From Magnolia sinica (lineage: Eukaryota > Streptophyta > Magnoliopsida > Magnoliales > Magnoliaceae): a DNA stretch of 64,000 bases. A program made the translations under genes and the position numbers. This document shows positions 29,187 through 56,429 of this stretch, piece after piece (position 1 is the stretch's first letter; each line of letters begins with the position of its first letter). The notes under the pieces are model-generated. The model was not told the origin of the DNA. It saw only the letters and a program-made list of their open reading frames with translations, and did not search any database. The stretch lies in assembly GCF_029962835.1 (NCBI RefSeq), contig NC_080582.1, forward strand, positions 15,942,032 through 16,006,031, given 5' to 3'.

Positions 29187-29242
29187 TTAGCCCAACCCGG
29201 CTTGAGAATTGATCCCTCTCCATTTCCACCCTCATGAAACAT
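29187..29242 (+). repeat. Left 56-bp direct repeat (NLR B leader)
   Basis: Identical over 56 bp to 29915-29970 (begins TTAGCCCAACCCGGCTTGAG, ends CTCATGAAACAT). The right copy leads into the copy B coding region, so the left one is a duplicate of the gene's leader. Confidence 0.95.
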
Positions 29243-29914
29243 ATTCCGAATCCACGGAACTTCTCTGGACTCCTCACAGAGACTTCTCGAATCCACGAGG
29301 AAAGAAAGCAGAGAATAGAAATAAATTCTAATAAAATCGAAATTGATTGATGAATTAATAAAATCGAGTTCACAACCCTTTAAATAAGGGTATCAAGCAA
29401 TGGGAAAGAAATCATAATCAAACTACAACTCAAACTCTCAGAATCCGCGACTTATCATAAATAGTAAACTTACTATTTATAGACGGTCGTGATGTCTACT
29501 AGTGCACAAGGTTTTCGGCCAAAAATAGTAAGTGTCTTATTTGGCTTCACCAAACCGTTCTCGTAATTATTCTAAGCTCTTTTCACGTTGGGCGCAACTC
29601 CTAAAGCCCAACGGATGAAGAGTTATAATCAAACTAAAACTTACTATTTATAGTAAAAACGAAATTAAAACAGGGAAACGACCGTCAATCAAGGGGTTTT
29701 TCGCAATTCCGGGCGGCGCAACCCGGCGTAGCTGGGTTGGTTGGCTAAAGTAGCTCGTTCTACCCCAAAATCATATATTTTACGTCAGCTAACTCATTCC
29801 GGATTGCGAGATACGCCCGATCTAAGGTCCGATGGTCCGGATCACTTCTGTCGTCGACCGGGCCTTTTCTGATCCATCTTAGCCATGAAACTGTCCGCGA
29901 CCTGCTCTACATCA
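29243..29914. mobile_element. 672-bp insertion in the copy B leader
   Basis: Sits precisely between the two 56-bp repeats. It has no ORF. It contains several ACTTACTATTTATAG/TAGTAA phrases and a GC-rich block (GGGCGGCGCAACCCGGCGTA, near 29713), somewhat LTR-like, but has no visible terminal inverted repeats or partner LTR. Origin undetermined. Confidence 0.6.
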
Positions 29915-29970
29915 TTAGCCCAACCCGGCTTGAGAATTGATCCCTCTCCATTTCCACCCTCATGAAACAT
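29915..29970 (+). repeat. Right 56-bp direct repeat, proximal leader of copy B
   Basis: Second identical copy, ending 38 bp before the chosen ATG. It restores the original leader next to the gene after the insertion. Confidence 0.95.
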
Positions 29971-30008
29971 GGAATTCAAATATTGCAGAAAGGGATCGCG
30001 CGGAGGCG

Positions 30009-32744
30009 ATGGCAGACTCCAGGGATGATGATGATCGACGGCTCAGAGGAGGAGGAGAGATTGTGAACGATTGGTCACGATGCATGAGGCAACAGATTTG
30101 GGATTGCTTGAGAGATGAAAAGATTTCAGTGTTCTCCGTATGGGGATGGCAGGGAGTGGGCAAGACAAGGATCATGAGACAAGTGGTTGCAGCGGTGGTG
30201 GAGGAATCCAGAGAATCTAGTCGTCTGTTTGATGTAATCATTCGAGTAAGAGCATCGGGGGTCGAGTGTCTTGCAGAGAAGATGCAGGCGAGAATCAGAG
30301 GAGAATTGGACAATTTGTCGAGTTTAAGGAGACGACTTTTAATGGCGTTGGATGCAAAGGGAAGAAGGAATCGGTTGATGGAGGTACAGATGGGAATCAA
30401 GGAGGCGTTGGAGATCCCAAAGTCCATGCACTTCTCTGCAGCTGCTAAACTAATCTCGGCTAAGCTAAGCGGCCAGCGTTTCCTCCTTGTCTTGGAAGAT
30501 GTTTGGGAAAGCATCAACTTGGAAGAGATGGGAGTTCCCCCAGTCATGGCATCTGCTATCACCAGCAGCAGCAAAGTCGTCATCACGACTCGATCCCATG
30601 AAGTTTGTAAGGAAATGGGAGCCCAAGTAAACATCATGATGGGGGGGTGGTCTAAAGAAGACGCCTGGGATTTTTTGAAGGAAGAGGCAGCCGATGTGGC
30701 CACCAGCATTGGTTTCTCAACAACAGGAGACATGGTCTTGAAATGCTTCTCTTACGTCTCCTTGTTCTGTCGAAACGGATGCTCCATTGATGGGGATTCC
30801 TTGATAGATGAATACTGGAGGTCGGAGGGCTTTTTAAATGGATCCTTCAATGAGGAGGAGAATAAAGAAGCGGCTTTCAAGAGACTTGGGAATGTACTGC
30901 TCAAAGAGTTAGCAGAGAGATGCATGGTGCTACTGTCTCTGATGTCATCAAACCCAGATTACCTACACTTTTATCTAAACAAGTATGGAAAATATTTAGA
31001 TAGCACGTCAAAATTTCAAACTACTGAAGACGGATTTATGGATTGGCTACAAGAGCAATTTACAATGGATGAATCATCGGGAGGACGCTATCATGTGGAT
31101 ATGAATTCTCATGTGAGGCAAGTGATTGATTCTCAGACGTTCCTAGTGAAATACAACTTAGACGGGGAAGAAGCATGCCAATGGATCTCATTATCCCACA
31201 ATCAGGTAGAAACATTTCAATTCAGCTCTCCAAACTACTCTCTTCTCTCGACGTTGTTGCTCAATGATAACGATCGCTTGCAAGAAATCCCAGACAGTTT
31301 TTTCAAGAACATGACCAGACTCCGAGTCCTTGACCTTTCTTCTACGAGCATCTCTTCCCTGCCATCATCCATGTCCTGCCTTCACGAATTACGGTTGTTG
31401 AAGCTTCGAAGCTGGTGCAAGCTAGAGGTTGTTCCTGCATTCTTAAAGGATATGCAGAAGCTTGAGATCCTTGATCTCCATCAAACTCCCTTGATGAAAA
31501 CGATGGAGGTATCCTTCCACAACATGCAAAGCCTCCGACGTCTCGACATATCGGGTGCCTGCACCCTCAAAAGGCTCTCACTCAAGGGTTGTCATTCTCT
31601 ACTAACAGTGGTTAGTCTGCAGAAACTTTCAAAACTTGAGGCACTTGATCTTTCAGGCACGAAAATGGAAGAGCTCACAGATGAAATTTTCAATCTGACT
31701 AGCATGCGGTGCCTGGATCTGTTGGGAATGGAGCATCTGAAGACGATTGACTGGAGAAATATACATCGGCTTCCAGAAAAATTAAATTGGGATCGTTGTG
31801 GCTTGGACTTGATGCATGAAGTGCACCAAGACAGCAACAAATGTCGCATCTCGGTCAGTGATGCTGGTGTTTTCAAGTCTTTAGGCAAAAAATCCAGACT
31901 CTGGAAATCCTACTTTCTAAAATTCCATTTCTTGGTCTGTCCCTGCAAAGGAGGTCGCAAGGATATATGTGCTCCTTTAAAAAGAAACCAATTTCTCTAC
32001 CGGCGTATTTATTCAAGATTTGAGCCATCTTTGAGTTATGAAAGAATTCTGGAGGTTTGCGGGGGTAACAATTCCCTGGACGGTGTTATAGGGGTTCTCT
32101 CGATGACAGAATTCTTTCATTTGTACGGCAATGCATTCGTTAAGGCACTGTCCGATCTCGGCATGAAGATGGACAACCTTAAAGAATGTTGGATTGAGAA
32201 ATGCCATCAATTGGAGTATCTGGTTGTCGGAAGAACGGCAGACGTTGATGCAGTGGTCTGTTTAGAGAATCTAAGGGTGTCCGATCTTGCCAAATTAAGA
32301 ACAGTGTGTCGGGGGGAGTTGGGAAGAGGGAGCTTCGCATGTCTAAAGAATATATATTTGGAATGTTGCCCGAAGCTCATCTACTTCTTCTCTTCAAGCA
32401 TTCGGTTACAGAATCTCAAATTACTTGAAATAAAATTCTGTTGTAGACTGGAGAAGGTTTTTGAAGAAGACAATGTAGCAGGGCAAAATGCATTTCCACA
32501 GCTAGTTGATTTACGTCTTTGGGAGCTACGCAAGCTAAAATGCATTAGTGGTGGCCACTTGCCGATGCTGAAGAAGTTGAAGATTCGAGGATGCCCGATG
32601 CTGGAGAAGCTTCCTTTCAATAACACAAATGATTCTACAGCAGAAGTCGAGATCCAAGGTGAGCTGAAATGGTGGGAAAGCATAAAATTATGGGAGGGCA
32701 GCATCAAGCCATGCAACATCCATTTCGAAGAAAGGCGTCCATAA
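30009..32744 (+). CDS. NLR copy B: atypical NB-ARC-LRR protein (intact)
   Basis: An uninterrupted 911-codon frame. The ATG at 30009 (MADSRDDDDRR) is preferred because copy A begins at the equivalent codon; the upstream in-frame ATG at 29937 lies in leader DNA. Cytosolic NLRs bind ADP/ATP and trigger immunity after effector sensing. Motifs by residue: P-loop GWQGVGKT 46-53; kinase-2 LLVLEDVWE about 159; RNBS-B SKVVITTRS about 187; RNBS-D-like CFSYVSLFCRNGCS about 245, then EYWRSEGF; MHD position MNS about 365; LRRs from about 395 (RLRVLDLSSTSISSLPSS); C-terminal LRRs ending KWWESIKLWEG, as in RPS2/RPS5-type CNLs. Oddities: only about 40 residues before the P-loop (no CC, TIR or RPW8); about 35-40 extra residues between P-loop and kinase-2; no GLPLA, since RNBS-B and RNBS-D are only about 60 residues apart. 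Copy A shares all of these, so they were inherited. Single exon. Whether it signals is unknown. Confidence 0.9.
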   Translation: MADSRDDDDRRLRGGGEIVNDWSRCMRQQIWDCLRDEKISVFSVWGWQGVGKTRIMRQVVAAVVEESRESSRLFDVIIRVRASGVECLAEKMQARIRGELDNLSSLRRRLLMALDAKGRRNRLMEVQMGIKEALEIPKSMHFSAAAKLISAKLSGQRFLLVLEDVWESINLEEMGVPPVMASAITSSSKVVITTRSHEVCKEMGAQVNIMMGGWSKEDAWDFLKEEAADVATSIGFSTTGDMVLKCFSYVSLFCRNGCSIDGDSLIDEYWRSEGFLNGSFNEEENKEAAFKRLGNVLLKELAERCMVLLSLMSSNPDYLHFYLNKYGKYLDSTSKFQTTEDGFMDWLQEQFTMDESSGGRYHVDMNSHVRQVIDSQTFLVKYNLDGEEACQWISLSHNQVETFQFSSPNYSLLSTLLLNDNDRLQEIPDSFFKNMTRLRVLDLSSTSISSLPSSMSCLHELRLLKLRSWCKLEVVPAFLKDMQKLEILDLHQTPLMKTMEVSFHNMQSLRRLDISGACTLKRLSLKGCHSLLTVVSLQKLSKLEALDLSGTKMEELTDEIFNLTSMRCLDLLGMEHLKTIDWRNIHRLPEKLNWDRCGLDLMHEVHQDSNKCRISVSDAGVFKSLGKKSRLWKSYFLKFHFLVCPCKGGRKDICAPLKRNQFLYRRIYSRFEPSLSYERILEVCGGNNSLDGVIGVLSMTEFFHLYGNAFVKALSDLGMKMDNLKECWIEKCHQLEYLVVGRTADVDAVVCLENLRVSDLAKLRTVCRGELGRGSFACLKNIYLECCPKLIYFFSSSIRLQNLKLLEIKFCCRLEKVFEEDNVAGQNAFPQLVDLRLWELRKLKCISGGHLPMLKKLKIRGCPMLEKLPFNNTNDSTAEVEIQGELKWWESIKLWEGSIKPCNIHFEERRP

Positions 32745-33243: not shown

Positions 33244-33276
33244 GAGAAACAGGCACGGTTGGATAATAGTTTGGGC
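33244..33276 (+). repeat. 33-bp target duplication, left
   Basis: Identical to 39506-39538 (begins GAGAAACAGGCACGGTTGG, ends GTTTGGGC). The undisrupted site is at 57988-58020, where one copy (one mismatch) runs straight on into GGGTTTTGGG-like DNA. Confidence 0.93.
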
Positions 33277-33333
33277 AAAATTAAGAAGAGTGCGGATCCT
33301 CTGCCTCCCGGAGGCAGGAACTCCCTGCCTCCG

Positions 33334-35250
33334 GCGTTTTCATCGGTCAACGTCACTATAAGTGCCACGTCATCAGATTTTTTAAATATATTAAAAAAAA
33401 ATACATGTATAACGGACGTTAAAGGGAAGCGGTTTGCGTGCTGAGTTACTCAGCAGGGTAAGCGTACTGAGTAAAGTCTGTGGAGCCCACCGTCGTCATT
33501 CGTGCATTGCTTCAACTCCATCCATCTCTTTTATCATCTAATTTCAGGGTTTTACAACAAAAATTAATCATATCCAAAGATCAAGTGGACCACACCACCT
33601 GAAACAGTGTGAATTGAATTCTACCGTTGAAAAGTTGTTGGGGGCCCACAGAAGTTTTGTATCAAGATGATATTTGTTTTTTTCCATTCATCCATGTCTT
33701 TGTGATCTTACGAACAGTTTAGATGAAAAATATATATATCATTGGGAGCTTAGAAACATTTCAATGGCGAAAATCAATACTTCTACTGTTTCCTTTGGTA
33801 TGGTCTACTGGAGCTTTTGATATACTTCAGTTTTGGGCTTAACCCCTAGAATGATTTGAAAAAACGGATGGATAGCGTGGATAAACCACATGAATTCACA
33901 GTGGGCCCAACAGAGTTTACTCAGTGCGATAAGACTGGTACGCAATCCAATTTCACGTGTCTAACGGGGGATGCGGATTTCCAGCCAAAGCCTTTTGCAG
34001 TAAGATCCTGCGCAAGGATTTTGGATGGGCCCACTGTGACATTTGTGATAAATCCAACCCGTTCATCCATTTTTAGATATCATTTTAAGATATAATACCA
34101 AAACTAAGATGTATACAAAACTCAAATGGGCCACACGAGAGGAAACAGTGGGGATTTAGTGTCCACTGTTGAAATATTTATATGGCCACAAAAGTTTTGC
34201 ATCGGTCTAATATTTTGGTATTTTCACTTCATCTTAGTAAAAATGACCTTATAAACAGTCTGGATGGCATATAAACATCAAGACGCCTAGGAAGGTTTCA
34301 ACTGTAGGAATTTCTTTCCCCACTGTTTCATCTTGTTAGGCTTAGTTGAGTTTTTGATCATCCTGTTTTTTGGTTACATGTCTTAAAATGAGCTCTAAAA
34401 ATGGATGAATGGATTGAAATTCTTACAAACATCATGGTGGATCCCACTATACAACCCGGTGCTAAAACTTCATACAAAAGGTTTTCCCCGGTGAATCCGT
34501 GTCCACGGTTTCCATTGGAAACGGACTAGCTACTCCCCTGCCACTCGGTACTATGTGAGCCCACCATGATGTATGTGTTTCATCCATGCCGTCCATTTAT
34601 TTTTCTAGATCATTTTATGGTCTAAGACCAAAAATGAGGTATAACTCAATCTCAAGTGGACCACATTACATGAAATAGTGTTGAATGAACATTGACCAGT
34701 AACAACCTTTTGGGGGCCATAAAAGTTTTGGATCAAGCTTTTCCCTTCATCTGGGTCTTTATGACCAAACCAACAGATTGGATGTCAAATAAACAGTACG
34801 GTGGGCCTTAGGAGGACTTTAATGATGGATATCCAATCACCATTGTTTTCCTGTGGTGTGGTCCATATGAGATTTATATCCCTCTCATTTTTGGGATCAA
34901 CCCCTAAAATTATATGTAAAAATAGATTAACGGAATGGATGAAACATATACATCATGGTGGGGCCCACAGAGTACCGACCACCACCACCACCGGGCTGAT
35001 GGTGGGGGGAGTAGCCAATCCGCTTTCATTTTCATTTCCATTTGAGATTCAGTGAAACAGACTCGCTACTTAAGTGATGTCATCTATTTATATGGGTCCC
35101 ACTATGATGTATGTTGTGTATCCATACCGTCCATCCATTTGGAGAGATCATTTTAGGGCATGAGCCAAAAAATGAATCAGATCCAAAACTCGAGTAGACC
35201 CCACCACAGAAAATAGTAAAGAGAGTCATGCCCACCATTTATTACGACTG
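33334..35250 (+). repeat. Left arm of the foldback
   Basis: Contains MITE units at about 33470-33925, 33960-34490 (with CGGATTTCCAGCCAAAGCC at its outer end), 34540-34990 and 35085 onward. Each is matched in reverse in the right arm. No gene. Confidence 0.8.
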
Positions 35251-35254
35251 AATC

Positions 35255-35720
35255 CAATCCAAACCTTGTTACTTTGTCTATTGAACCCCGTCACTTTGTA
35301 CTATGACCCCATCACTTTATCTACCGAACCCTATCACTTAGTGTTGCAACCTTGTCACTTTGTCTAGTGAACCCCGTCACTTTGTACTGCAACCCCGTCA
35401 CTTTATCTATTGAACTCCGTCACTTTGTCGCAACATCGTCACTTTGTCTGTACCCCATCACTTTGTGCTACAACCTCGTCACTTTGTCTACTATACCTCG
35501 TTACTTTGTGCTTCGACCTCGTCACTTTGTCTAGTGAACCCCGTCACTTTGTCGTAACCCCGTCACTTTGTCTCATCGAACCCCATTACTTTGTCAGTAA
35601 CCCGTCACTTTGTCTGCAACCTTATCACTTTGTCTACTCAACCCCATCACTTTGTCTACTGACCTGTTACTTTGTACTACACCTCGTCACTTTGTCTCTG
35701 AACTCGTCACTTTATGCTGC
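35255..35720 (+). repeat. Minisatellite, forward half
   Basis: About 22 copies of a 20-24-bp unit with core (C)GTCACTTTGT, alternating between linkers like CTACTGAACCC and GCTGCAACC. The 104-codon frame across it translates the repeat only. Confidence 0.93.
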
Positions 35721-37390
35721 ATAGACAAAGTGACGGCTTCTGACAAAGTGACGGGGTTCAAGACAAAGTGATAGGGTTGTAGTACAAAGTGACGGATGAG
35801 AGAAAGTGATGATGTTGCGTCTGAAAGTGACGGATTCAGAAACAAAGTGACGGGGTCAAAAAGTGACGGGGTTCAAAGACAACGATGGTCATGACAAAGT
35901 GACGGGGTATAGTAGACAAAGTGACGGGGTTGCTGTACAAAGTGACAGGGTACAGTATACAAAGTGACCGGGTACAATTAGGGGTGTACACAAACCGGAC
36001 TAGCCCGGTTAACTCACTCGACTCGGCCCGAAAAAGCCCGACTTGGCCCGAAACTCGACTCGACTCGTCCCGACTCGCCCTTTAGGGTATATATACCTTG
36101 TTTTAAGGAAAAAGAAAAAGAAAAAGCTTCTGAAACCCTTCTCTCTCAGGGTATGTCCGTTTTCTTTCTTTCCTTTCTGTAATTTCAGATTCAGAAATTT
36201 TATTTTTCTTCATTTTCTTTTCATGGCCTAGCTCTCGAGAGATGTTGTTACATCAAATAGATCTGCTATTTTAAGGGGATTTTAGGTATTTTTATCTTTT
36301 ATTTACGGTGTAGATCTTACTGTGGATGAGATTTCCATTACCTGTTTCTGATTTTCATGTTATGTGGTGGCATTATTGAATATGATCTTGAACCTACGAT
36401 CGGGATTTTAGCTGTTATATGTAGTCTTTTGAGTTGTTTATTTATTTATTGTGAATTTTGTTGTTTTTCTTATGTTATTGTTGTAGATCTTTAATCTACA
36501 ACAAGGTTTTATTTTATTGTATCTGATCTTGAATCTATGATCGGACTTACAGCGAAGTTTGTGGTTTTTTTCATGTTATTGTATTGAATCTTGTATCTAC
36601 GATCGAATTTCGAGCAGTTTTTGTTGAGGTTAGATCTGTGTAGAGATATGCGATCTGCTGATCCTGACTTTACGATTTGATTTTTAGTTATTTTTGTGGT
36701 TCGAGCGGACCTACTATTTTAAGGGGTTTTGGCTATTTCTTTTTGCTACTTCTGAATCAGATCTAGCCATGGATGACATCTCAAGCTGTTTTTTCTGATT
36801 TTCAAACTGATTGGTGATGGCGTTGGATTCGATCTTGGACGTACAATCCCATTTTCAGCTTTAAATTGTGGACGTTTTAAAGAGGGATTTAATTTTTTTT
36901 CTTACTCTTATGTTATTGTTGTAGGTTTTCAGCTATTTTCGGTTTTGTAGGTTTTCCCGACTTGGCCCGACTCATCCCGAAACTGGCCTGAACTCGAAGG
37001 TTCGAAACTGACCCGAACTCGCCCGATTGCTGACCGGGCCGGGTTCGGGCTAGACATGTTGGCCCGGTGATCGGGCCAGACCAGGTTCGGGCTGGGTGTG
37101 ACTGGTGACCGGGCTGGGCCGAGTTGAGCCCAGTTCGACTCGGATCGACTCGTGTACACCCCTAGGTGCAGTAGACAAAGTGACGGGGTTGCAGTACAAA
37201 GTGACGGGGTTCAGTAGACAAAGTGGCGGGGTTGCAGTACAAAGTGACGGGGTTCATTGGACAAAGTGACGAGGTTGCAGCACGAAGTGACGGGGAGCAG
37301 TAGACAAAGTGATGAGGTTGTAGCACAAAGTGACGGAGTACAGTAGACAAAGTGACGATGTTGCGTACAAAGTGACGAGGTACAGGGTCA
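35721..37390 (-). repeat. Minisatellite, inverted half (split by a hAT-like MITE)
   Basis: The same unit in reverse, ACAAAGTGACGGGG with linkers TTCAGTAG and TTGCAGT, about 12 copies at 35724-35970 and about 10 more at 37172-37385. Together about 22, equal to the forward half. Orientation flips at about 35720. Confidence 0.9.
35979..37164. mobile_element. hAT-like MITE with TIR TAGGGGTGTACAC (1186 bp)
   Basis: Ends TAGGGGTGTACAC and GTGTACACCCCTA are perfect inverted repeats. The flanks GGTACAAT (35971) and GGTGCAGT (37165) form an 8-bp duplication with two transitions, typical of hAT. CCCGACTCG/CGAGTCGGG-type repeats fill both ends. The centre (about 36110-36950) is T-rich and begins with CTTCTGAAACCCTTCTCTCTC, reminiscent of a host 5' UTR and intron, possibly captured. 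Confidence 0.8.
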
Positions 37391-39504
37391 AAAGAATGAG
37401 GTAGATCCAAAGTTGAAGTGAACCCCTCCATCGAAAATAGTTAGGAGAGTGACGTCCACTGTTGAAGCCTTCCTAAGGTCCACCATGATTTTTATTTGAG
37501 ATCTAACTTGTTCATAAGTTAACATAGATATTAAAGAAGCGAAGACACAAATATCAGCTTGATCGAAAACTTTTGTGACCCTTAGAAGTTTTTAATGGTG
37601 AGCGTACTCTCTTCACTGTCTTCCGTGGTGGGGTCCACTCGAGTTTTGGATCTGATTCATTCTTTGGCTCATGCCCTAAAATGATCTCTCCAAATGGATA
37701 GACAATGTGGATACAAAAGATACCTCATGATGGGACCACATAACTAGGTCACATCACTTTAGTAGCGAGTCTCACTACCCAATGTGGCACTGAATTCCAA
37801 ATGGAAATGAAAGCGGATTGGCTACTCCCCCACCACCAGCTCGGTAGTGGTAGTGGTCAGTACTCTGTGGGCCCCACCATGATGTATGTGTTTCATCCAT
37901 TATGTTAATCTATTTTTACAAATAATTTTAGGGGTTGATCCCAAAAATGAGAGGGATATAAATGTCATATGGACCACACCACAGGAAAACAATGGTGATT
38001 GGATATCCATCATTAAAGTCCTCCTAAGGCCCACCGTACTGTTTATTTGACATCCAATCTATTGGTTTGGTCATAAAGACCTAGATGAAGGGAAAAGCTT
38101 GATCCAAAACTTTTATAGCCCCCAAAAAGTTTTTAATGGTCAACGTTCATTCAACACTATTTCATGTAATGTGGTCCAGTCGAGATTGGGTTATACCTGA
38201 TTTTTGGTCTTAAATCATAAAATGATCTAGAAAATTAAATAAATGGACGGCATAGATGAAACACATACATTATAGTAGGCCCACATAGTACTGAGTGGCA
38301 GGGGAGTAACCAGTCCGTTTCCAATGGAAACCGTGGACGTGGATTCACCGGGGAAAGCCTTTTGCATGAAGTTCCAGCACTGGGATGTATAGTGGGGTCC
38401 ACCATGATGTTTATAAGAATTCCAATCCATTCATCCATTTTTAGAGCTCATTTTAAGACATGTAACCAAAAATTAGAATAATAAAAAACTCAACTAGGCC
38501 ATACAAGATGAAACAGTGGAAAAAGAAATTCCTACGGTTGAAGCCTTTCTAGGCGTCTTGATGTTTATATGCCATTCAAACTGTTTATAAGGTCATTTTC
38601 ACTAAGATGAAGTGAAACACCAAAATATTAGACCGATGCAAAACTTTTGTGGCCATATAAATATTTCAACAGTGGACACTAAATCCCCATTGTTTCCTCT
38701 CGTGTGGCCCATTTGAGTTTTGTATACACCTTAGTTTTGGTATTATATCCTAAAATGATATCTAAAAATGGATGAACGGGTTGGATTTATCACAAACGTC
38801 GCAGTGTGGCCCATCCAGAATCCTTGGGCAGGATCTTATTGCAAAAGGCTATTGCTGGAATTCCGCATCTCTAACGTGAAATCGGATTGTGTACCAGTCT
38901 TATCGTACTAAGTAAACTCTGTTGGGCCCACTATGAATTCTTGTGGTTTATCCACGCGGTCCATCTATTTTTTCAAATCATTTTAGCAATTGAGCCCAAA
39001 ACTGAAGTATATCAAAAGCTCAAGTAGACAATACCAAAGGAAACAGTGGAAGTATTGATTTTCACCATTGAAATGTTTCTAAGCCCCCAATGATGTTTAT
39101 TTTTCATCCAAATTGTTCATAAGATCATAAAGACATGGATGAATGGAAAAAACAAATATCATCTTGATATAAAACTTCTGTGGGCCCCCAACAACTTTTC
39201 AACGGTAAAATTCAATTCACACTGTTTCAGGTGGTGTGGTCCACTTGATCTTTGGATATGATTAATGTTTGTTGTAAAACCCTAAAATTAGATGATAAAA
39301 GAGATGGATGGAGTTAATACAATGCACGAATGATGACGGTGGGCTCCACAGACTTTACTCAGTACGCTTACCCTGCTGAGTTACTTAAGCACGCAAACCG
39401 ATTCCGTTTAACGTCTGTTATACTTCTTATTAAATGTATATTTTTAATATATTTAAAAACTCTGATGACGTGGCACTTATAGTAACATTGACCAATGAAA
39501 ACGC
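37391..39504 (-). repeat. Right arm of the foldback
   Basis: Mirror of the left arm. It also holds about 190 bp (37391-37580) with no counterpart on the left, where the left arm has lost the inner part of a MITE. Confidence 0.8.
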
Positions 39505-39505
39505 T

Positions 39506-39538
39506 GAGAAACAGGCACGGTTGGATAATAGTTTGGGC
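39506..39538 (+). repeat. 33-bp target duplication, right
   Basis: Second copy of 33244-33276. After it the flank continues as in the copy after NLR C. Confidence 0.93.
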
Positions 39539-43519: not shown

Positions 43520-43930
43520 GGCTGTTGTTAAATGGAGAAGACCATCCCCAGGCTGGGTTAAATTAAATGTTGATGGTTCTTCTCGCAGGAACCCAGGCAA
43601 AAGTGGAAGCAGAGGAGTCTGCAGAGACCACTTTAGGATGCCTGTTCTTTGCTTTTCACCAATCTTATGGTATCTCATCTAACACAGAAGCAGAGTAAAG
43701 GGCCATTTTGGACAGTATTAAGATATGTAAACAGTTTAACCTGTCAAATGTAAACATTGAATTAGATTCCCTAGTGGCAACAGAGGCCATTCTCAACCAT
43801 CATAGCATCCCCTGTAAGATCTGGTATATTGTGGGTGACATCAAGAAGGAGCTTGAATGCTTAGACTTCTCCATCTCACATGTTTATAGAGAGAGCAAAT
43901 GCAGCAGATGAGAGACTAGCTTGTCTATGA
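43520..43930 (+). pseudogene. Plant RNase H (RVT_3-type) relic
   Basis: Reads VKWRRPSPGWVKLNVDGSSR, NPGKSGSRGVCRDHF, a frameshift, then SNTEAE (with a stop at GAG to TAA/TAG position), DSIKICKQFNLSNVNIELDS, LVATEAILNH, IKKELECLDFSISHVYRES and a final AAD-like end. The acidic RNase H positions (first D in NVDGS, E in AE, D in ELDS) are recognisable. This domain occurs at the end of plant non-LTR retrotransposon proteins and in related host-like genes. Frameshifts and stops make it non-functional. Confidence 0.75.
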
Positions 43931-44460
43931 AGCCGTGGTGTGGTCGAGAAGTGATCTCCCTATGGAAGTTAGGGGTCTCTTAGAAATGGATGGCGTAGGG
44001 CTGGGCTGCATTAGAAGCAAAGGCTGATCCAATTGGCAGGAAGCATGTCTGTAAGGGCTGGGAAGTGTACAATGCCCTCAGATTCTGATTCTTTCCTACC
44101 TTGCAGACGCATCTGAGCTTCCCTTGTGTAAGACCTTCTGATGCAGGCTTAGAGGAATGGACTTATCTGCAGAGTATTGTATGTGCCTGCCAGGGCTGCA
44201 GGTTAGTTATGTAAAATATAAATATGGATGAATGGTTCTAGTAGTTGCCGCCGTTACAAGTTTACTGTTGGATGCGGCCTGTAGTCGAGCTCATCGCAGG
44301 CTAGGCTGTATGATGAATAAATGGAGTTGGTTTAGAGATAAGTTATTGTAGCCCTTTGTGAGGTGGTGGATGTGTCTGGCCTGCTTTGCAAGCTCAGTGG
44401 CCCTCATACTTCTCTCTTTCGAAATGTATATTGTGCTGCTCATGCTGTTAATAGAAGTCT

Positions 44461-44516
44461 TTGTGTGTGCGCGTGCATATGTGAGTGTGAGTGAGTGCGT
44501 GCATGCGTGTGTGTGT

Positions 44517-44563
<47 letters not shown>

Positions 44564-44659
44564 GATGTTGAAGAGGTGATTTGGGTGTGTTGTATAGTGT
44601 GTTAGTGGGCAGGGGAAGGGTATGTGCGAAATGGAGGTGTGTGTAATTGAGTGTTTTGT

Positions 44660-44711
<52 letters not shown>

Positions 44712-44815
44712 GAAGTTGAAGAGGTGATTTGGGTGTGTGTTGTATAGTGTGTTAGTGGGCAGGGGAAGGGTATGTGTGAAATCGAGGTGTGTGTAATTGA
44801 GTGTTTTGTGTCTAA
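44461..44815. repeat. TG/GA microsatellites with a 148-bp tandem duplication
   Basis: GA runs at 44519-44559 and 44663-44708, each followed by the same about 105-bp text (GATGCAGATGTTGAAGAGGT..., GTGTGTGTAATTGAGTG). The second copy has small differences. One unit was duplicated, probably by slippage or unequal exchange within GA. Confidence 0.9.
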
Positions 44816-45121
44816 ATGTAAATCAATGCAGCTGCTCCATTTGGATTGCTGTTGCTAGTTGATTACGGTAGTTGTTGCAGACGCCTCTGTTTGGACAGTT
44901 TTAGCTGATGTTGGTTGGAATGGGAAAGCTGTTCCTGCTGAAGTTTGGAGTGTGATCAGCTGCATATGGATGCAGCTCTTTCGGTTGGATTTGGATAAAT
45001 CTGGATTTGGGTTTTTAGCTGAAGCATTTTCTCTTCAAATCCAGGAGCTAGATGATGAAGTATTAATGGAGAATCAGAGTTAGAATGTGCTCGGTGTTGC
45101 CAAGTCGGAGTAAGGCTGTAG

Positions 45122-45496
45122 TGGTTATTCTCAGAGTTGTGTTCCGGTGAACCTGCTAGCAATTCTGGATGGTTCTGGGTCTGATCCTCTAAATTGCTCT
45201 GTTTGATCATCGTCCTCTGCTCCTGTTATGCTGTGAGGGTAGTTGCTGTTGCTATGCCTGTTTGCTTCAGCTGCTGCAGCTGCTTCTGGTTTTGCTAGAC
45301 ATCTTCATTCTTCAACCTCCTTGCCGCTGTCTTGAAGACTACAATTTTGTCTGTGACTTCGCCTATGACTTTTGCAAGGCCATTATATATAAAAATATTT
45401 TTGTAAATAAATATCTTTAAATTTAATTATATGTTCACATAACAAATAGTTCAGTATATATTTTGTGATGTTATCAGCATTGCTTGTCACACTGGT
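45122..45496 (+). repeat. Flank block delta, copy 1
   Basis: Matches 60463-60721 and then 62389-62508. In copy 2 the block is interrupted by the insertion at 60722-62388. Ends where gypsy element G begins. Confidence 0.8.
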
Positions 45497-45664
45497 TGTG
45501 ACTCATACTAACACAGCATGAAACAGAAAAAAGGATTAGACCAACGTCAAAATCCTACAAACCAGAGAGAAGATTCTCAAAAGGACAAGAGGTAAATTTT
45601 ATTAAATGAAAGATATCTCTGCTATTCAGATTACATCTTTATTTATAGAGGAACTGCTAGAATA
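45497..45664 (-). repeat. Probable 3' LTR part of G
   Basis: On the minus strand it reads CTATAAATAAAGATGTAATC (around 45630-45650) followed by a CT-rich segment, and ends in CA at the block delta junction. The LTR start is not defined. Confidence 0.5.
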
Positions 45665-45915
45665 CTAAAATAGGATTAATTGAGAAGGGAATGGAAACGG
45701 ACAGTAATCAAGCCTACAATCAAGGCATAGATTGATTCTGACTTATTTATTAACAAATAATACTTTTCTAAAAATAGAGACCCGGCTGTCTTCATCCGAG
45801 AATGGAACCTCCACACAATCAGGGCTCTTGATTTCTGCTAGTGCTTCCGTGCCTTTTGATTGGACCGTTGGCGTTCCAATAGCTCCATGAAGTCTTCTGC
45901 CATTTGTCCTACATC
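45665..45915 (-). repeat. 251-bp direct repeat, left of E2
   Basis: About 95% identical and exactly equal in length to 53870-54120. Both are G-derived (3' part after the integrase). The right copy is continuous with the G coding region; the left with the G LTR. Confidence 0.93.
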
Positions 45916-48088
45916 GGTGTAAGACCGAGGTCGAATCCACAGGGACTGAAACCTGTACGTTTCCTGAAACTAGGTAGAACTAGAACTGGTCTAAGATGCG
46001 ATCTAAAACAAATAGAATTTTAAGGAATAATTGTCTAAAACTTAAGTAATTCAGAGGAAGGAAACTAGGGATTCAGAGGATCCACTTGTAGAGATCAGGG
46101 AGAAATTATGCCTGCTTCAGAAATCATGGAATTTAACTAGACTTCCTTTGATATAGTTTTCAAGAGGTGAAGGGTATATGAATTAGAATGGATTCCATCA
46201 TCTAACCATGCCCAGGAGACAAAGCAAACAACAGGATTAAACTAATTACCGACCAATCAAATGTACATGAAAGTTAGGAAGGGTACTATCATCCTACCAT
46301 GCCCATGGAGCAATGATGAACAACAGGGCTTCCTGACTTCATAAACATAAAAAGGGGAAAGAAATATTCAAAGCCATTACAAACCCATTGTAATTTCAGT
46401 CACAACAGACCATTAAAGACTAAGAAAAATATTCCTTATAATAATCAACTAAATCAAATTCAGTTTATGAATTTTAAAGGCACAAAGTAGAATCTCCCAT
46501 CTCTCTACAGGCTTCACCTCTTAGCCCTAGCTAAGAGGTTTAGCCACACATGAATGGGCTAACTTAAAAATCAACAACAGAAGAAGGAGAAAGGAAAAAG
46601 GAAAACAACCAGGTCCAGGTCCAGCCCAAGCCTTCAGCAGCCCCTCCTTCTAATGCTTCCTCCACATGCTCATCTCCAAAACCGAGCTCACGTGCCGCCA
46701 TGCCTCAACTGAGCTCCCTCTCACCAAGCTCAGCTCACGCCCTGAAAAACCAAGCCAAGCTCCACACGATCTCAGCAACCCAAGCCACGTCCAGCCCTCA
46801 CGTTCCCTCCACACTCCCCGTTTCAGCCGCTGCTCCTCCTCTCTCCCTTTATAGAACTCGTCGGACCCGAATTTCCCCACTCTAGGCGGAAGTCTTCCGC
46901 ACAAGAGAACGTGTTGGAGTCGGAATAAGAAAACTTTCGTAGCAACAAGCGGAGGACCTGCGATCAACCCACGTTTGGCTTGAGATTTTGGACGACTGAT
47001 CGTCCAAGATCAGAATCGGACTTCTTGGAGGTGGTCACGGCTCCCTGTTGATGAGGATGAACGATTTGGATTGCTGATCCGATCACCGTCCTGATCACGG
47101 AACGGCCTGGAAGTCTCGGTTGCGCGTAACAGGGCTTGCGCGGCTCTTGCGCTGGGATGTTGGTGGAGGCCATGAACGATGTTGGAGAGGAAATCCACTC
47201 CGTCAGTTGGATTCGCCTCGGAATTCCGGTTGGAGATGGACGTTTTGGTTGTCCGTTGATGCAGCCCATTGAATTGTAACTCAGCCATCCATCCTGCATT
47301 TAAATAGAGACCCACGCATATATGCGTGTATGGGTTTGGAGAAATCCCTTTTGTACGGTCAGTTGGATCCTCTGGAATGACTGGACGGTTCGGATTGTCG
47401 AAATGAGGCGCGAGTGGGGCCCACATCGAGCGCCTGTCGAAACAGCGTCGGACGCTGTTTCCTTTTTAACAATGAACTTCGGGTCAGCCCGTTTTTTGAC
47501 CGGACTCTCCGTCCGGTGCATTGCTCGTGCACATGTACCCTATGTACATGCAATGTACATATAGGTTCATCGTAATGTTTGAGAGAAATCTGTGCCGTCC
47601 ATCCATTCTGTCATATCTTATAAACCATCCATACCAATTTTGAAGTATATCCAGATATCAGGCGGGCCCCACATAATGATTAAAGGGGCTGATCTGTCCG
47701 TTGGGCCACTTCCACAGTGATCCAGGAGCTGAAATTTTACGTGTACGGTTCATTTATGGTCCTCAGGCCACATATGGAGTTTCGAACTGATCGGATGGTG
47801 GGAACCCTATGATCTTACATTCTGGACACTTTTCAGGCCACTTGAGCTTCAATTCCTCGATTTTCTTGGATCCCTGGCGTGCAAATCTGTCAATCTTGGT
47901 CTCCTAGGGTCTGTCACTTGCCTGGGTGACTTTAGATTGTTAAATCCATGCTTTTAGTACCCTTTTCCAGTCCAAGCTCGTGAATACGCCCTGCATCACA
48001 AACATGATTAAATCAGGCCGTTAAACAATACTATGTTTGAAAATTCAGGCAATAACAGGGTCTGATATGCAATATTTGACCCTCAACA
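45916..48088 (-). repeat. E2 3' LTR (left on the map)
   Basis: Intact inner edge (CTCAACA at 48082-48088, i.e. TGTTGAG in element sense); outer edge clipped at TAAGACCGAGGTCG. Contains a TATA-like box on the minus strand. Confidence 0.88.
46847..46855 (-). promoter_or_regulatory. LTR TATA box (E2, left LTR)
   Basis: Minus strand CTATAAAGG within TTCTATAAAGGGAGAGAGG. The right LTR has unrelated sequence at this place. Confidence 0.5.
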
Positions 48089-48114
48089 CAACCCCCAACC
48101 AGCATCTTGCTAGT
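48089..48114 (-). promoter_or_regulatory. Polypurine tract and stem-loop of E2
   Basis: Minus strand ACTAGCAAGATGCTGGT (48098-48114) forms the same stem as in E1 with one G-T pair, followed by TGGGGGTTG and the LTR. Confidence 0.7.
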
Positions 48115-49457
48115 CCCGAGCAAGGTATGCGAAAAATAAATTGAGAATTACAGGACAATTTCTACAAACTCAAGAGATTTATGTAAAACAATTCAGATAC
48201 TCGAATTCTAAGATTCATGAATGTTGGCATTACTTTCTCCTGGAATTAAGCGCATGGTACTTCATAATCAAGCTCAAATATTAATCCATTAATTAGAATG
48301 ATTCTAAATATTGAATTCCATGGGTGTATCGTGTAATCTCGGCTTATCATTAAGGTTCATTTCTTAATTTCATGATATTATCGGTAAACACTAAGATAAT
48401 TCATGATAACCAACACCTAACTCAAAGCTTGATTCATTCTTCCAGCTTTTGATGATTTTCACACTATGTCAACTTGTTTAAAAGTACAGCCAAGGAGGAG
48501 AATAGAATCTACACCTATAGGGAGCAAACCTATGGTAAAGATCGGACGCCAAAAAGTTTATGAATGTCAACCTTGGGGAATCAAACCTTCACCCGTAGGG
48601 AGCAAACCTATGGTGAAAACCATTCGCCCAATCTTTTCAATTTCTTAAGTTGGTTCCTTTCAAGCTTAGTGATCACCAAATTAATCCTTCAATATCGAAT
48701 GAAACCTTAATGTGTAAGCGAGATGTGACATGTAAAATTAGGATTCAATCAGTGTTTAAAACTTCTAATCATGGATTAATAGTGCTAACTTAACTGTGAA
48801 ATCTAACAATAGTTGAATCCAAGAGTCATCAATTCCAACATCACTTATCTTGTAATTCTAAGTCCAAGATGGCTGTCAAAATCGCTTCGAATTCATACGA
48901 AAGTCTGAAAAATTAAAAAATTTCACAATTTTTGCTTAAGACCAAGAAGGAAACCTAATCTCCCACCCCCAACCAAAAATCTACATTGTCCTCAATGTAA
49001 AAGAAATAAGCATGCAATGCACATGGGACAAAATAAGTAAATGAGAAGTGATGGGAAGATAATACCTGAAAGAATCAAGAGGCTTTCCATAGCTATTTAC
49101 GTAAAAGGGGGTCAGTACAAGAGAGAAACCAACAAAAGTAAAGACAAAATCCTACCTATACCACTTTCGTAGGTGCTCTCAATTGCATTTAGCGTATGCA
49201 ACAAGCCTTTAAACCCCTAGGTTACCCCTAGTAGACGAGTTGTAGTCTCGTGAGGGTTTACGGATAAAGTACAAAGAACAAGGGACTTATGAAGCCCCGA
49301 ACTTGGCTGCGAAAAGATGTTGTGCGAAATTTACTGCGAAAACTAGAATAGTATGAAGCAAACTACCCTAATCCTATGAATGCAGGGAAAAACTACTCGA
49401 TCATACCGCAAGGTTCCTCTTCTGGCCAATATCTTGATAAGTTTCTTAGTAAGTTCC
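48115..49457 (-). other. E2 3' non-coding region
   Basis: No ORF. Carries the repeat pair at 48513-48535 and 48591-48613 (TAGGGAGCAAACCTATGG), 78 bp apart as in E1, and a C-rich block near 48962-48972. At 49200-49250 there is the phrase AAACCCCTAGGTTACCCCTA, matching 10450 in E1 in reverse. Confidence 0.75.
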
Positions 49458-51179
49458 TCAACAGATCATCCAAAAGCCCTTTTTGCAATAGGCTTGGACG
49501 CTCTGGAGTATGACTTTCCAGAGAAACTTATGTGCCTCATAAGAAATTTTCCGTTGAAGTGCTTGAGGTATCCATAGTATATACGATTCACCTGTGACAG
49601 AAGAGGTTTCAACGTTAGTATCCCATAGTGAATCAGAAACTACAGGTAGATAAAGTTTAGAAAACTTCACAAGAAGTAATGTAGTCTCAACACATTCCGA
49701 CGTGTCAGACTTCGGTTCAATTTTCAGCTCCTCCTCCCTTAATGGTAAACATTTAGGATCTGTGGAAGAAGGGGCTTCAAAGTAAGGGTTCTCTCGGTCA
49801 GTGATGACTACCGAGATGTTGTCTTGCAAGGCATTCACTATGTCTCTTATCATGGGATCATTTGAATCTGCAAAGTGTGCCAAACAATCATCAAAAGAGT
49901 TGGGACATTCAGCTAAGGGTGACTCATTTTCCACATTAAAGCTTGTGATGATCTGCCCAAGGAATCCATTGTCTTTAAAGGTAAACGGAGGTGTGCTCTC
50001 TTGCTCCAGCCCTACACAGATAGATTGAAAATCAATAGGGGAAGCATCGATGTGATCACTTTGTTCATTGAAACTACTCAATCGAGGTGTTGAATTGTCA
50101 AATGTGTACAGCTCAGATGGTGGCCTCAACTTAGTGGTTTCAATTTCCAAGGTCGTAGCGAGCAACTCGTCCTTCTCCCGAATCACATCATCATTTAATT
50201 CAGAGGAGTGGTCCAAACATGTTTCACAAGAGTTAGAAGGGTCGATTGTAAGGAGCTCATCCTCTACCTTAAAATCAGACATGTCAGGTGAGGGGAGTGG
50301 CTCATTATGACCGACCACTTCATGTACATCTTGATCATTGACCTGGACCAAACTTGAGATTGATTCTAGGGGACTTTGGGCTGTATATTCATGATCATCA
50401 TCCCAATAAGCATCATCGTCTAATTCCGTACAGTACACACTTGGGATGGGGTCGCTCTCCTCACATTCTACACCTAAGTTCGGTTGAGGTTTGAAAAAAC
50501 TAACCTCTACGTCATCATTGAGATCCTGTGTGTCATGTGAGGAAAGTGTGTCATCATCACTGTATTTGAAAGATACCCACGCATCTTGACCATTCCTTTG
50601 AACAGTCATTGAGATCAACTCATCGGGAAATTGAACCATATGCTCATTGATAGAATCCAACTCCTCATTTATAATTCCAGAGTTCTTCCAAAGCGAGTTA
50701 GGATCACTTTTCTCGCATTGTATTTCTGGAATGAATTGTGGTTGAGATAACCGAGCCTCCTCTATCTTATCAAGGCGCGAATTAAGCGCTTCCAACGATT
50801 TTCTCATTTCCGTGAGATAGGCCAGGCTACGCTGAACTAAATCCTCTTGGATTGTTTCTGGTTGGATATCAATGGTAGGGTATCCAAGAGGGTAATCATT
50901 ATAACATATAGTTGGTTCATCTTCCAAATTTTGATGTTTCCCCTGGTAATAGTCATACTGATCATACATGGGAGAATATGATGGTTGATAATAATCCTCG
51001 TTTCCATAATTACGATCATATACGGCCCTATTAACAGATGGAACATAACGTTTTAGTCGGTTCTCAATGTCTGTTCTTGATGGAGAAAAATCTTGAGGTA
51101 TACGTTGAATTCCACAACCCTCAGGCATTCCCCAATATCTCTTATCCATCTCGGCATATGCACGTACCCACGCTTCCAT
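49458..51179 (-). CDS. Acidic 573-aa protein of unknown function in E2
   Basis: An intact frame on the minus strand, starting MEAWVRAYAEMDKRYWGMPE and ending in TGA at 49458. No gag, zinc knuckle, protease, polymerase or integrase motif is visible. Residues about 75-105 are Tyr/Gln-rich (YYQPSYSPMYDQYDYYQG); a short helix-prone segment follows (AYLTEMRKSLEALNSRLDKI, about 120-140), which could be a coiled coil. The remainder is very acidic, rich in Asp, Glu and Ser with repeated themes such as ELDDDAYWDDDHE, (C/V)E(C/K)(E/S)SDP and SLESISS. The last 40 residues are more basic and hydrophobic. It is the only protein this element could make and has been kept open. Possible roles such as RNA or particle binding are speculation. 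Confidence 0.75.
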   Translation of the reverse strand: MEAWVRAYAEMDKRYWGMPEGCGIQRIPQDFSPSRTDIENRLKRYVPSVNRAVYDRNYGNEDYYQPSYSPMYDQYDYYQGKHQNLEDEPTICYNDYPLGYPTIDIQPETIQEDLVQRSLAYLTEMRKSLEALNSRLDKIEEARLSQPQFIPEIQCEKSDPNSLWKNSGIINEELDSINEHMVQFPDELISMTVQRNGQDAWVSFKYSDDDTLSSHDTQDLNDDVEVSFFKPQPNLGVECEESDPIPSVYCTELDDDAYWDDDHEYTAQSPLESISSLVQVNDQDVHEVVGHNEPLPSPDMSDFKVEDELLTIDPSNSCETCLDHSSELNDDVIREKDELLATTLEIETTKLRPPSELYTFDNSTPRLSSFNEQSDHIDASPIDFQSICVGLEQESTPPFTFKDNGFLGQIITSFNVENESPLAECPNSFDDCLAHFADSNDPMIRDIVNALQDNISVVITDRENPYFEAPSSTDPKCLPLREEELKIEPKSDTSECVETTLLLVKFSKLYLPVVSDSLWDTNVETSSVTGESYILWIPQALQRKISYEAHKFLWKVILQSVQAYCKKGFWMIC

Positions 51180-51858
51180 GGTAGAACCCTAACTCTGAGT
51201 CTAATCCTAGAAAAAAGAAGAATCCTACAGCAATACATAAAGTAAGAGGAGAAGTTAGAAAGATGTTACCAGACTAGAGATTCTTATATTAAGATCCTGC
51301 AAAAGAAAACAACAGAAATTAGTTTCTAAATCTAAGAATTCTAAAGTAATGTTAGTTTTTAAACAAAAAGTCTACAAGTAGAAAATTTCTAAAAATAAAT
51401 TAGGAAACAAAGTTAGATTCTAAAAGAGTTAGAATTAGAAAGTTAATAAAAATAGAAAGTTAGTTTCTAAAAAGGAAAGTTCCAGAATTAGAAAATTTCT
51501 AAAAATAAAGGAAAGATTAGTTAGTTTCTAAAATTAGAAAGAAACTCTAAAAAAGGAAATAACTAACCAAGTTTCTAAAAACAAAAGAGGAAAGTTTCTA
51601 AAAATAAACTAGTTCCTAAAAATAGAAAAATACTAGAAAATAGAAAATTTCTAAAACTCAAACAATAATTCTAAAAATAGAAAAAATAGAGGAATTAGAA
51701 AGGGATTACCAATTTAGAAGTTATTTCAGGATCCTACAAAACAGGAAAACAGGTTAGTTTATAAAAATAAAATAAAAACTTTTAACCTAAAGTTAGTAAA
51801 ATCCTAATCTTAACCTAATTCTAAAGCTAATTAATTTCAGAAAAACATAGCCATCAAT
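51180..51858 (-). other. E2 untranslated leader
   Basis: Runs of TTTCTA/TTTTTAG (in element sense) between the primer site and the ORF, as in E1. The composition continues for about 550 bp and has no ORF. Confidence 0.65.
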
Positions 51859-51875
51859 CCCCGGCAACGGCGCCA
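51859..51875 (-). other. Primer-binding site, tRNA-Asp (E2)
   Basis: CCCCGGCAACGGCGCCA on the plus strand, complement of the tRNA-Asp(GTC) 3' end, without mismatch. Six bases separate it from the LTR. Confidence 0.93.
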
Positions 51876-51881
51876 AAAACT

Positions 51882-53869
51882 TGTTCACTCCCCAAGTATA
51901 GGGTTGTGATGTAGTAATAAACTCGGTAAGACCGAGGTCGAATCCACAGGGACTGAAACCTGTACGTTTCCTGAAACTAGGTAGAAATAGAACTAGCCTA
52001 AGATGCGATCTAAATCAAATATAAATTGATGAATAATGGTGAAATAATTATCTAAAACTTAAGTAATTCAGAGGAAGGAAACTAGGGATTCAGAGGATCC
52101 ACTTGTAGAGATCAGGGAGAAATTATGCCTACTTCAGAAATCATGGAATTTAACTAGACTTCCTTTGATATAGTTTTCAAGAGGTGAAGGGTATATGAAT
52201 TAGAATGGATTCCATCATCTAACCATGCCCAGGAGACAAAGCAAACAACAGGATTAAACTAATTACCAACCAATCAACAATGTATGAGGATCAGGAAGGG
52301 TACTGTCATCCTACCATGCCCATGGAGCAATGATGAACAACAGGGCTTCCTGACTTCATAAACATAAAAAGGGGAAAGAAATATTCAAAGCCATTGCAAA
52401 CCCATTGTAATTTCAGTCACAACAGACCATTAAAGACTAAGAAAAATATTCCTTATAATAATCAACTAAATCAAATTCAGTTTATGAATTTTAAAGGCAC
52501 AAAGTAGAATCTCCCATCTCGCTACAGGCTTCACCTCTTAGCCCTAGCTAAGAGGTTTAGCCACACATGAATGGGCTAACTTAAAAATCAACAACAGAAG
52601 AAGGAGAAAGGAAAAAGGAAAACAACCAGGTCCAGGTCCAGCCCAAGCCTTCAGCAGCCCCTCCTTCTAATGCTTCCTCCACATGCTCATCTCCAAAACC
52701 AAGCTCACGTGCCGCCAGTGCCTCAACTGAGCTCCCTCTCACCAAGCTCAGCTCACGCCCTGAAAAACCAAGCCAAGCTCCACACGATCTAGCAACCCAA
52801 GCTTTCTTCCCCAAAGAATCTCCTTCACGTGTCTGCCTCCAGACGACCTCCGTTTGATGCTCCTTATCATTCTCTATCTCCTGTTAAAGCACTCACGACG
52901 GAGACGAATTACCGTCCTCCATGCGCAAGACTTACGCACCATATAGTGTTTTGGAGTCGGAATAAAACAGTTTCCGCAGCAACAGGCGGAGGACCCGCGA
53001 TCAACCCACGTTTGGCTTGAGATTTTGGACGACTGATCATCCAAAATCAAAATCGAACTTCTTGGTGGTGGTCACGGATCCCTGTTGATGAGAATGAACG
53101 ATTTGGATTGCTGATCCGATCACCGTCCTGATCACGGAACGGCCTCGAAGTCCCGGTTGTGCGTAACAGGGCTTGCGCAGTTCTTGCGCTGGGATGTTGG
53201 TGGAGGCCATGAACGATGCTGGAGAGGAAATCCACTCCGTCAGTTGGATTCGCCTCGGAATTCCGGTTGGAGATGGACGGTTTTGGTTGTCCGTTGATGC
53301 GGCCCATTGAATTGCAACTCAGCCGTCCATCCTGCATTTAAACAGAGACCCACGCACATATGCGTGTATGGGTTTGGAGAAACCCCTCTTGTACGGTTGG
53401 TTGGATCCTTTGGAATGACTGGACGGTCCGGATTATCGAAATGAGGCGCAAGTGGGGCCCACATCGAGCGCCTGTCGAAACAGCGTTGGTCGCTGTTTCC
53501 TTGTTAAGGACGGACTTCGGGTCAGCTCGATTTTTGACCGGACTCTCCGTCCGGTGCATTGCTTGTGCACATGTACCCTATGTACATGCAATGTACATAT
53601 GGGTCCATCGTAATGTTCGAGAGAAATCTGTGCCATCCATCCATTCTGTCATATCCTATAAACTGTCCATACCAATTTTGAAGTATATCTAGATATCAGC
53701 GGGCCCCACATAATGATTAAAGGGGCTGATCTGTCCGTTGGGCCACTTCCACAGTGATCTAGGAGCTGAAATTTTATGTGTACGGTTCATTTATGGTCCT
53801 CAGGCCACGTATGGAGTTTCGAACTGATCGGATGGTGGGAACCCTATGATCTTGCATTCTGGACACTTT
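51882..53869 (-). repeat. E2 5' LTR (right on the map)
   Basis: Begins TGTTCACTCC on the plus strand and is clipped at GGACACTTT. About 96% like the left LTR except for a block at 52803-52955 that does not align with 46797-46925. Confidence 0.88.
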
Positions 53870-54113
53870 CTAAAATAGGATTAATTGAGAAAGGAATGGA
53901 AACGGGCAGTAATCAAGCCTACAATCAAGGCATAAATTGATTCTGACTTATTTATTAACAAATAATACTTTTCTAAAAATAGAGACCCGACTGTCTTTAT
54001 CCAAGAATGGAACCTCCACACAATCAGGGTTCTTAATTTCTGGTAGTGCTTCCGTGCCTTTCGATTGGACCGTTGGCGTTCCAATAGTTCCATGAAGTCT
54101 TCTGTGATTTGTC

Positions 54114-54120
<7 letters not shown>
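53870..54120 (-). repeat. 251-bp direct repeat, right of E2
   Basis: See the left copy. It joins without a break to the G coding region at its right. Confidence 0.93.

Positions 54121-56429
<2,309 letters not shown>

Follow-up and report, generated by a model that had tools for sequence, protein, structure and literature searches.

The window, as we call the whole stretch of 64,000 nucleotides analysed here (C10:15942032-16006031 in a genome of 1.84 Gb), contains no N and is embedded in a cluster of NLR paralogs: 38 of 40 scored matches to a 301-bp query fall on C10 between 15.25 and 16.67 Mb. NB-ARC/LRR frames are present inside the window, and the one that adjoins the insertions treated below is listed in Table 1. 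For comparison we used three paralogous regions, designated R (C10:15725001-15735000), Q (C10:15462001-15482000) and P (C10:16070001-16110000, taken on the reverse strand); the window itself is abbreviated W where the comparisons are given. The paralogous region P lies about 100 kb away, in inverted orientation relative to the window.

Table 1. Features of the window, numbered from its first nucleotide
Feature	Position	Strand	Remark
Case 2, left 56-bp target copy	29187..29242	+	final part of 953 bp without mismatch to paralog R
Case 2, insert: solo-LTR fragment of an abundant LTR retrotransposon family	29243..29914	-	
Case 2, right 56-bp target copy	29915..29970	+	
NLR reading frame (NB-ARC + LRR)	29934..32744	+	open over 936 codons
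Case 1, left 33-bp target copy	33244..33276	+	end of 657 bp without mismatch to paralog Q
11 bp between target and foldback terminus	33277..33287	.	absent at this place in Q and P
Case 1, insert: MULE-type foldback element	33288..39505	.	
Case 1, right 33-bp target copy	39506..39538	+	
Case 3, left target copy (about 91 bp)	42147..42236	+	within 42000-42236
Case 3, insert: E2, a TRIM-like LTR element	42237..42864	+	
Case 3, right target copy	42865..42959	+	opens 918-bp run identical to paralog P
Paralog-P-like stretch between two clipped TEs	42865..45918	+	
Case 4, left target copy (251-254 bp)	45665..45918	+	3' LTR end of TE-Y; inside 532 bp without mismatch to P
Case 4, insert: Gypsy-like LTR element	45919..53869	-	
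Case 4, right target copy	53870..54123	+	

Four insertions between long direct repeats

Four inserts of transposable element (TE) DNA in the window are bounded by direct repeats of 33, 56, 90/92 and 251-254 bp, which we term cases 1, 2, 3 and 4, respectively. The pairs had been reported in a first-pass annotation of this DNA, and their alignment confirmed that all four are real. The two copies are identical in case 1 (33/33) and case 2 (56/56), whereas those of case 3 (42147-42236/42868-42959; 95-bp overlap by alignment) are separated by scattered mismatches and a 2-bp gap, and those of case 4 (45665-45915/53870-54120) differ at 13 of 251 positions, or at 14 of 254 if the copies are extended to 45918/54123.

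TE-free paralogs (not alleles) are available for every one of the four sites, each with one copy of the target, and these single targets indicate that the repeat pairs did not arise by chance. The 33-bp target is single in all seven paralogous loci cut from the genome (L002-L008; eight of the 40 matches were cut, the eighth being the window itself), including the flank of NLR C inside the window (L005). The 56-bp target is single in R (L055) and in P, the case 3 target in P (overlap 95), Q (overlap 93) and the NLR C flank (overlap 93), and the 254-bp target in P. When W is compared directly with its TE-free paralogs, the inserts are delimited at 29243-29914, 33277-39505, 42237-42864 and 45919-53869, and the flanks overlap by 56 bp (R, P), 33 bp (P, Q), 95/93 bp (P/Q) and 254 bp (P), respectively. 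The earlier claim that the flank following NLR C retains one uninterrupted target for the 33- and 91-bp cases also held, the respective overlaps being at 57988-58020 and 60133-60225. One copy in the empty locus and two around foreign DNA in the filled locus is the arrangement of a break-repair duplication, observed here between paralogs rather than alleles.

A scan for isolated direct-repeat pairs of 22-400 bp, whose filters rejected the 33- and 91-bp pairs and which is not used as an estimate of density, returned five pairs in the window: the 254-bp and 56-bp pairs, an internal repeat of E2, and pairs of 41 bp (93%) and 44 bp (89%). Applied to 20 kb of P and to 10 kb of Q, the same scan returned a single pair from each.

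The inserts are near-complete elements with eroded edges

All four inserts are near-complete elements from which one or both ends have been trimmed by 31-258 bp; they cover about 83-99% of the native element, the edges alone are missing, and the joins share 0-1 bp of sequence (by eye). Nearly whole elements with eroded edges are not what random fragments would look like. The clipping of E2 on both sides and of the foldback element on one, noticed in the first-pass annotation, was verified, and it extends to the LTR of case 2 (52 bp) and the Gypsy-like element of case 4 (44 and about 258 bp).

The insert of case 1 has the features of a Mutator-like foldback element: long terminal inverted repeats, with arms 90% identical over 1.9 kb, and, in its family, the 9-bp target-site duplications (TSDs) typical of Mutator-like elements, seen in five of the seven copies examined. 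The terminus is exact on the left; on the right about 46 bp are missing. The element is built of arms of ~530-bp subrepeats and a core of 43-bp minisatellite, and has many copies in the genome. A genome-wide search at up to two mismatches in 23 bp found no donor foldback joined to the same 11-bp flank that precedes the exact terminus. A 10/11 match to this flank, 986 bp upstream in the NLR gene, was judged to be within chance, the window containing five such one-mismatch matches, and was dropped as a candidate source.

In case 2, 672 of the 724 bp of an LTR are retained, with 52 bp missing at the left end (by eye) and a right end that coincides with the exact LTR terminus. The 29 listed copies of this LTR extend further left, by the 52 bp to the LTR start, and have right ends equivalent to 29914. 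Exact 5-bp TSDs flank 8 of the 12 copies classed as solo/other among L022-L050, L022 having been left out of this classing. The fragment in the window has 6 private differences in 672 bp, as against 0-4 in its 29 relatives, and for the 161-bp stretch containing them the best genome match is 97% (40 of 1627 candidates scored).

The E2 element of case 3 has the features of a TRIM: it is a very short LTR element (native length 754-755 bp) with a 5-bp TSD in three of four copies, and its sequence contains a primer-site-like TGGTATCAAAGC, presumably matching a tRNA. The copy in the window retains 628 of 755 bp, its left end being shortened by about 95-99 bp and its right end by 31 bp. Matches to this family are offset by about 404 bp at several places in the genome, and the family seems to form tandem arrays.

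The Gypsy-like element of case 4 has LTRs that are 92.5% identical (7.5% different). The losses follow from a related Gypsy in P, which went in with a 5-bp overlap and whose termini correspond to 51882 and 48090: measured against it, the window element is short of 44 bp in the 3' LTR and of about 258 bp in the 5' LTR. Its target lies in another element, TE-Y, which sits at the same place in P and whose matches on C2 and C9 are pairs about 4.9 kb apart. The left 251-bp copy has host flank on its left and ends a few bp past the TE-Y LTR end, while the right copy runs into the TE-Y interior. Two other readings of this repeat were rejected: the copies are not the two LTRs of TE-Y, since both are overlapping parts of its 3' LTR, and they do not belong to the Gypsy's own LTR, since they are not similar to the segment of the Gypsy's 3' LTR that would correspond to them.

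A probable patchwork of gene conversion

In the comparison of W with P, long zero-mismatch runs alternate with stretches differing by about 5-28% per 100 bp, and the window appears to be a patchwork of gene conversion with its paralogs. The mosaic formed by 39506-45918 and 53870-55758 relative to P suggests strong ectopic gene conversion. The P-like stretch between the two clipped TEs has long zero-mismatch runs at both its ends and some differences in the middle, partly in simple repeats.

At least one flank of each insert, target copy included, is identical up to the junction to a TE-free paralog for 532-953 bp, the best of P, Q and R being taken. The identity extends 953 bp to the left and 634 bp to the right of the LTR in case 2 (paralog R, 0 differences over 1531 bp), and 657 bp to the left and 247 bp to the right of the foldback element in case 1 (paralog Q). 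In cases 3 and 4 one flank alone is identical to P (runs of 915-918 and 532 bp) and the other is about 7-13% diverged from it, so that the left and right runs measure 12/918 and 532/22 bp. On the diverged side, 30 of 239 alignment columns differ from P in the 237 bp to the left of E2 (42000-42236), and in case 4 the divergence is about 7% across the right flank, 53870-55552. Beside the identical flank the TE had lost 31 bp in case 3 and 44 bp in case 4. The last differing position of the 251-254-bp copies, 45916/54121, is already of the P type on the left.

The two copies of the target thus have different relations in the two pairs of cases: they are identical in cases 1 and 2, and in cases 3 and 4 one is of the P type and the other is not. 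Their divergence in cases 3 and 4 therefore reflects paralog origin and is no clock. The earlier argument that differing divergence between the copies implies repeated events is not supported on this point, as the divergence in question is that between paralogs. More generally, the divergence of such copies cannot date the event where conversion is active.

Identical runs and overlaps at insertions

The association of long identical runs with the junctions is suggestive only. All run-length tests were post hoc and used paralogs P, Q and R only. The runs on the trimmed side (953, 247, 918 and 532 bp) gave a P value of 0.008 against random window positions when the pool was one-sided, and of 0.053 when it was the larger of two sides. 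The larger run of each case gave 0.014 (0.017 with 587 in place of 657), and with all eight junction sides pooled (0.067) the runs were not clearly longer than random. Furthermore, ordinary conversion bounded by heterology would produce trimmed-side runs to a TE-free paralog that look alike.

The overlaps of the four W inserts were set beside those of four collinear insertions specific to P (P 5905, 12833, 25592 and 34251), which have overlaps of 5-6 bp. Identical runs at these P insertions are 202/172, 43/16, 22/20 and 603/29 bp, the last of which changes to 595/530 if the measurement starts 8 bp further in. The insertion at P 34251, with its short overlap, therefore has runs as long as those of the window's scars, and those at the other three are 16-202 bp. 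Two kinds of row were left out of this comparison: 1) pairings of different tandem NLR units or of two LTRs (75-396, including W-R 196 and 214). 2) Rows with overlaps of 0-7, for example those at P 23497, 24222, 25030, 26708 and 32821, W 43806, and Q 9337 and 9707. Three other stretches of W have overlaps of 3-6 bp against one paralog (40974-41549, 43244-45130 and 61090-61839), and Q offers one clear 6-bp case (10798-13009). A further, full Gypsy element at 4515-13777, with 2.2-kb LTRs that are 96% identical, gag and protease frames and the 5-bp TSD TATCA, is a normal insertion in the same window as the four odd ones. Together with the three stretches at 3-6 bp it shows that the window is not uniformly odd.

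Origin of the long repeats

The four structures are very probably products of double-strand-break repair and not TSDs made by an integrase or transposase. This lends partial support to the first-pass annotation, which had proposed the repair of widely staggered breaks with captured TE DNA as filler: the joins of 0-1 bp and the trimmed ends speak for break repair by end joining, and inserts that preserve about 83-99% of the native element speak against random fragments as filler.

The specific path that we tentatively favour, at somewhat less than an even chance, is one-sided invasion of a TE-free paralog, copying past the insertion point, and end joining to a trimmed TE. It would comprise the following steps: 1) a TE would first have inserted normally at each site. 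2) A break would later have occurred at or near one TE end. 3) The free host flank would have invaded a near-identical, TE-free paralog of the cluster. 4) Repair synthesis would have passed the insertion point and continued for 33-254 bp beyond it. 5) The new end would have been joined, without homology, to the trimmed TE end. The overrun would then constitute the second target copy, and the lost TE edge the resected side. We infer both the order, with the TE first and the overrun later, and the placing of the break at a TE end.

This path accounts for the near-complete elements, for the single fresh flank in cases 3 and 4 and for the exact terminus in case 2, and inserts that are near-whole and trimmed at their edges are better matched by an eroded resident element than by random filler. 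Several further observations were counted in its favour. The TE of case 2 looks older than its flanks (6 private differences as against 0 to R), and its exact LTR terminus is as it would be after a normal insertion. In case 4, LTRs that are 7.5% different stand beside a 532-bp identical flank, and the four collinear P-specific insertions have overlaps of 5-6 bp. Cases 2 and 4 thus suggest that the elements are old and their flanks recently exchanged. The same impression would arise if a source copy had been lost or had not been scored, and the private differences of case 2 may stem from a source outside the 40 of 1627 candidates scored.

Other features fit one-sided copying past the insertion point less comfortably. 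If the junction opposite the trimmed one is the intact original, case 2 conforms; in case 1 the terminus is intact with 11 foreign bp added, and in cases 3 and 4 the opposite side is trimmed as well. The path is strained by these latter cases because both of their ends are trimmed, the second by about 95-99 and 258 bp, respectively, which calls for further loss. It is strained in case 1 because the longer run (657 bp) is on the untrimmed side and that on the trimmed side is 247 bp, and the 11 foreign bp before the exact foldback terminus suggest that the element arrived with some donor flank. Also against it are that both flanks of case 2 are identical to a TE-free paralog, that gene conversion stopped by the TE would likewise leave runs ending at the junction, and that the right flank of case 4 is nearer to the C9 copy of TE-Y (94.6%) than to the P locus (L010, 92.6%). 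An allele in which a normal TSD flanks the same TE was not found.

Nearly as likely is that staggered breaks, with opposed nicks 33-254 bp apart, were filled in and that trimmed extrachromosomal TE DNA, either cDNA or an excised element, was captured by end joining, with one of the copies in cases 3 and 4 later overwritten by conversion from a paralog. In this sharpened form of the first-pass proposal both copies should have a common local origin, which agrees with the identical copies of cases 1 and 2, whereas cases 3 and 4 require a separate gene conversion that halted within about 3 bp of the Gypsy. Capture is favoured by the trimmed ends with joins of 0-1 bp homology (by eye), by the fact that neither end is intact in cases 3 and 4, and by the 11 foreign bp next to the foldback terminus, which look like carried-over donor flank, and the passages of PMC8355091 that bear on the matter describe tandem duplications from opposed nicks. 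Capture of an LTR element would, however, need an additional LTR-LTR recombination to give the solo LTR, and it offers no reason for the fresh flanks. Nor was a close source present among the 40 candidates scored for each of three elements (best 98% for the LTR, 94% for the foldback and 95% for E2), though the flanks of cases 1 and 2 are identical to TE-free paralogs.

An artefact of assembly or of haplotype switching at the repeats is improbable. Four anomalies within one 25-kb stretch of a highly duplicated cluster, known from the assembly alone, are what might raise the suspicion; set against it are base-exact joins, different TE families and repeat lengths, the private variants of the LTR fragment and a window without N.

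We regard unequal exchange between TEs of the same family, at slightly offset positions in two paralogs, as very improbable. The differing paralog affinity of the two flanks in cases 3 and 4 is as it would predict, but in cases 1 and 2 both flanks match one TE-free paralog without a mismatch next to the junctions, no such TE is present in L002-L008 (case 1), R and P (case 2), P and Q (case 3) or P (case 4), and the trimmed ends would be left unexplained.

Least probable of all is an integrase or transposase making unusually long target duplications: the direct repeats do abut the inserts, but at 33-254 bp they are, in support of the first-pass annotation, far longer than the duplications in most examined copies of the same families (5 bp for the LTR in 8/12 and for E2 in 3/4, 9 bp for the MULE foldback in 5/7, and 5 bp for the Gypsy relative in P), and all four inserts lack at least one of the termini on which such enzymes act.

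Relation to known repair products

Tandem duplications arising from opposed nicks or staggered breaks were reportedly described in rice by Vaughn and Bennetzen in 2014. The structures in the window resemble them in that a short target is directly duplicated at a break, with end joining and no signature of a transposase, and differ from them in that the copies enclose a nearly whole TE and that, in two cases, one of them matches a different paralog exactly. One-sided invasion, in which homologous copying from one end is followed by non-homologous joining, is said to have been set out for plants by Puchta in 1998. It shares with the favoured path one homologous and one illegitimate junction and copying past the break; here, in contrast, a TE-occupied locus would have been broken and repaired from a TE-free paralog, the outcome being a false target-site duplication. 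That tandem duplications arise from nicked or staggered ends is also treated in PMC8355091, the relevant passages of which invoke fill-in by CST/Pol alpha and cite plant and human data. At the maize p1/p2 locus, filler DNA was reported along with a Mu-like element truncated after its insertion, the deletion breakpoint lying beside a 15-bp direct repeat (PMC2686159). As far as the passages of that study extend, it too concerns a cluster of tandem paralogs in which a Mu-like element is truncated, a direct repeat adjoins the breakpoint and break repair is the proposed cause, whereas the maize example is a single case with a short repeat, and these passages show no TE-free paralog as template. A literature search with partial coverage, by title and the start of the abstract, did not find long false target duplications produced by conversion running past a TE.

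More tentatively than for the path itself, we suggest that a TE in one copy of a cluster might make conversion from TE-free copies a recurrent accident. Overruns joined to trimmed TEs would leave false TSDs of tens to hundreds of bp that record failed ectopic conversions together with their donors, up to four of them in this window. If the path by one-sided copying is true, long repeats at truncated TEs would be readable marks of aborted gene conversion in NLR clusters, the donor paralog would be identifiable by sequence, and the scars could be counted genome-wide. In that case, TE catalogues may also misread such repeats as target-site duplications.

Insertions and the NLR reading frame

The open NLR frame has its first in-frame ATG at 30009, about 95 bp downstream of the case 2 LTR (by eye), and this scar may affect the promoter of the gene. 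Between the end of the right 56-bp copy and the same ATG the distance is 39 bp (by eye). In P, insertions of 5.9 and 8.7 kb (L052, L082, L083) are found at places matching window positions 31730 and 32709; both fall within the span of the window's NLR frame, and both have 5-bp overlaps.
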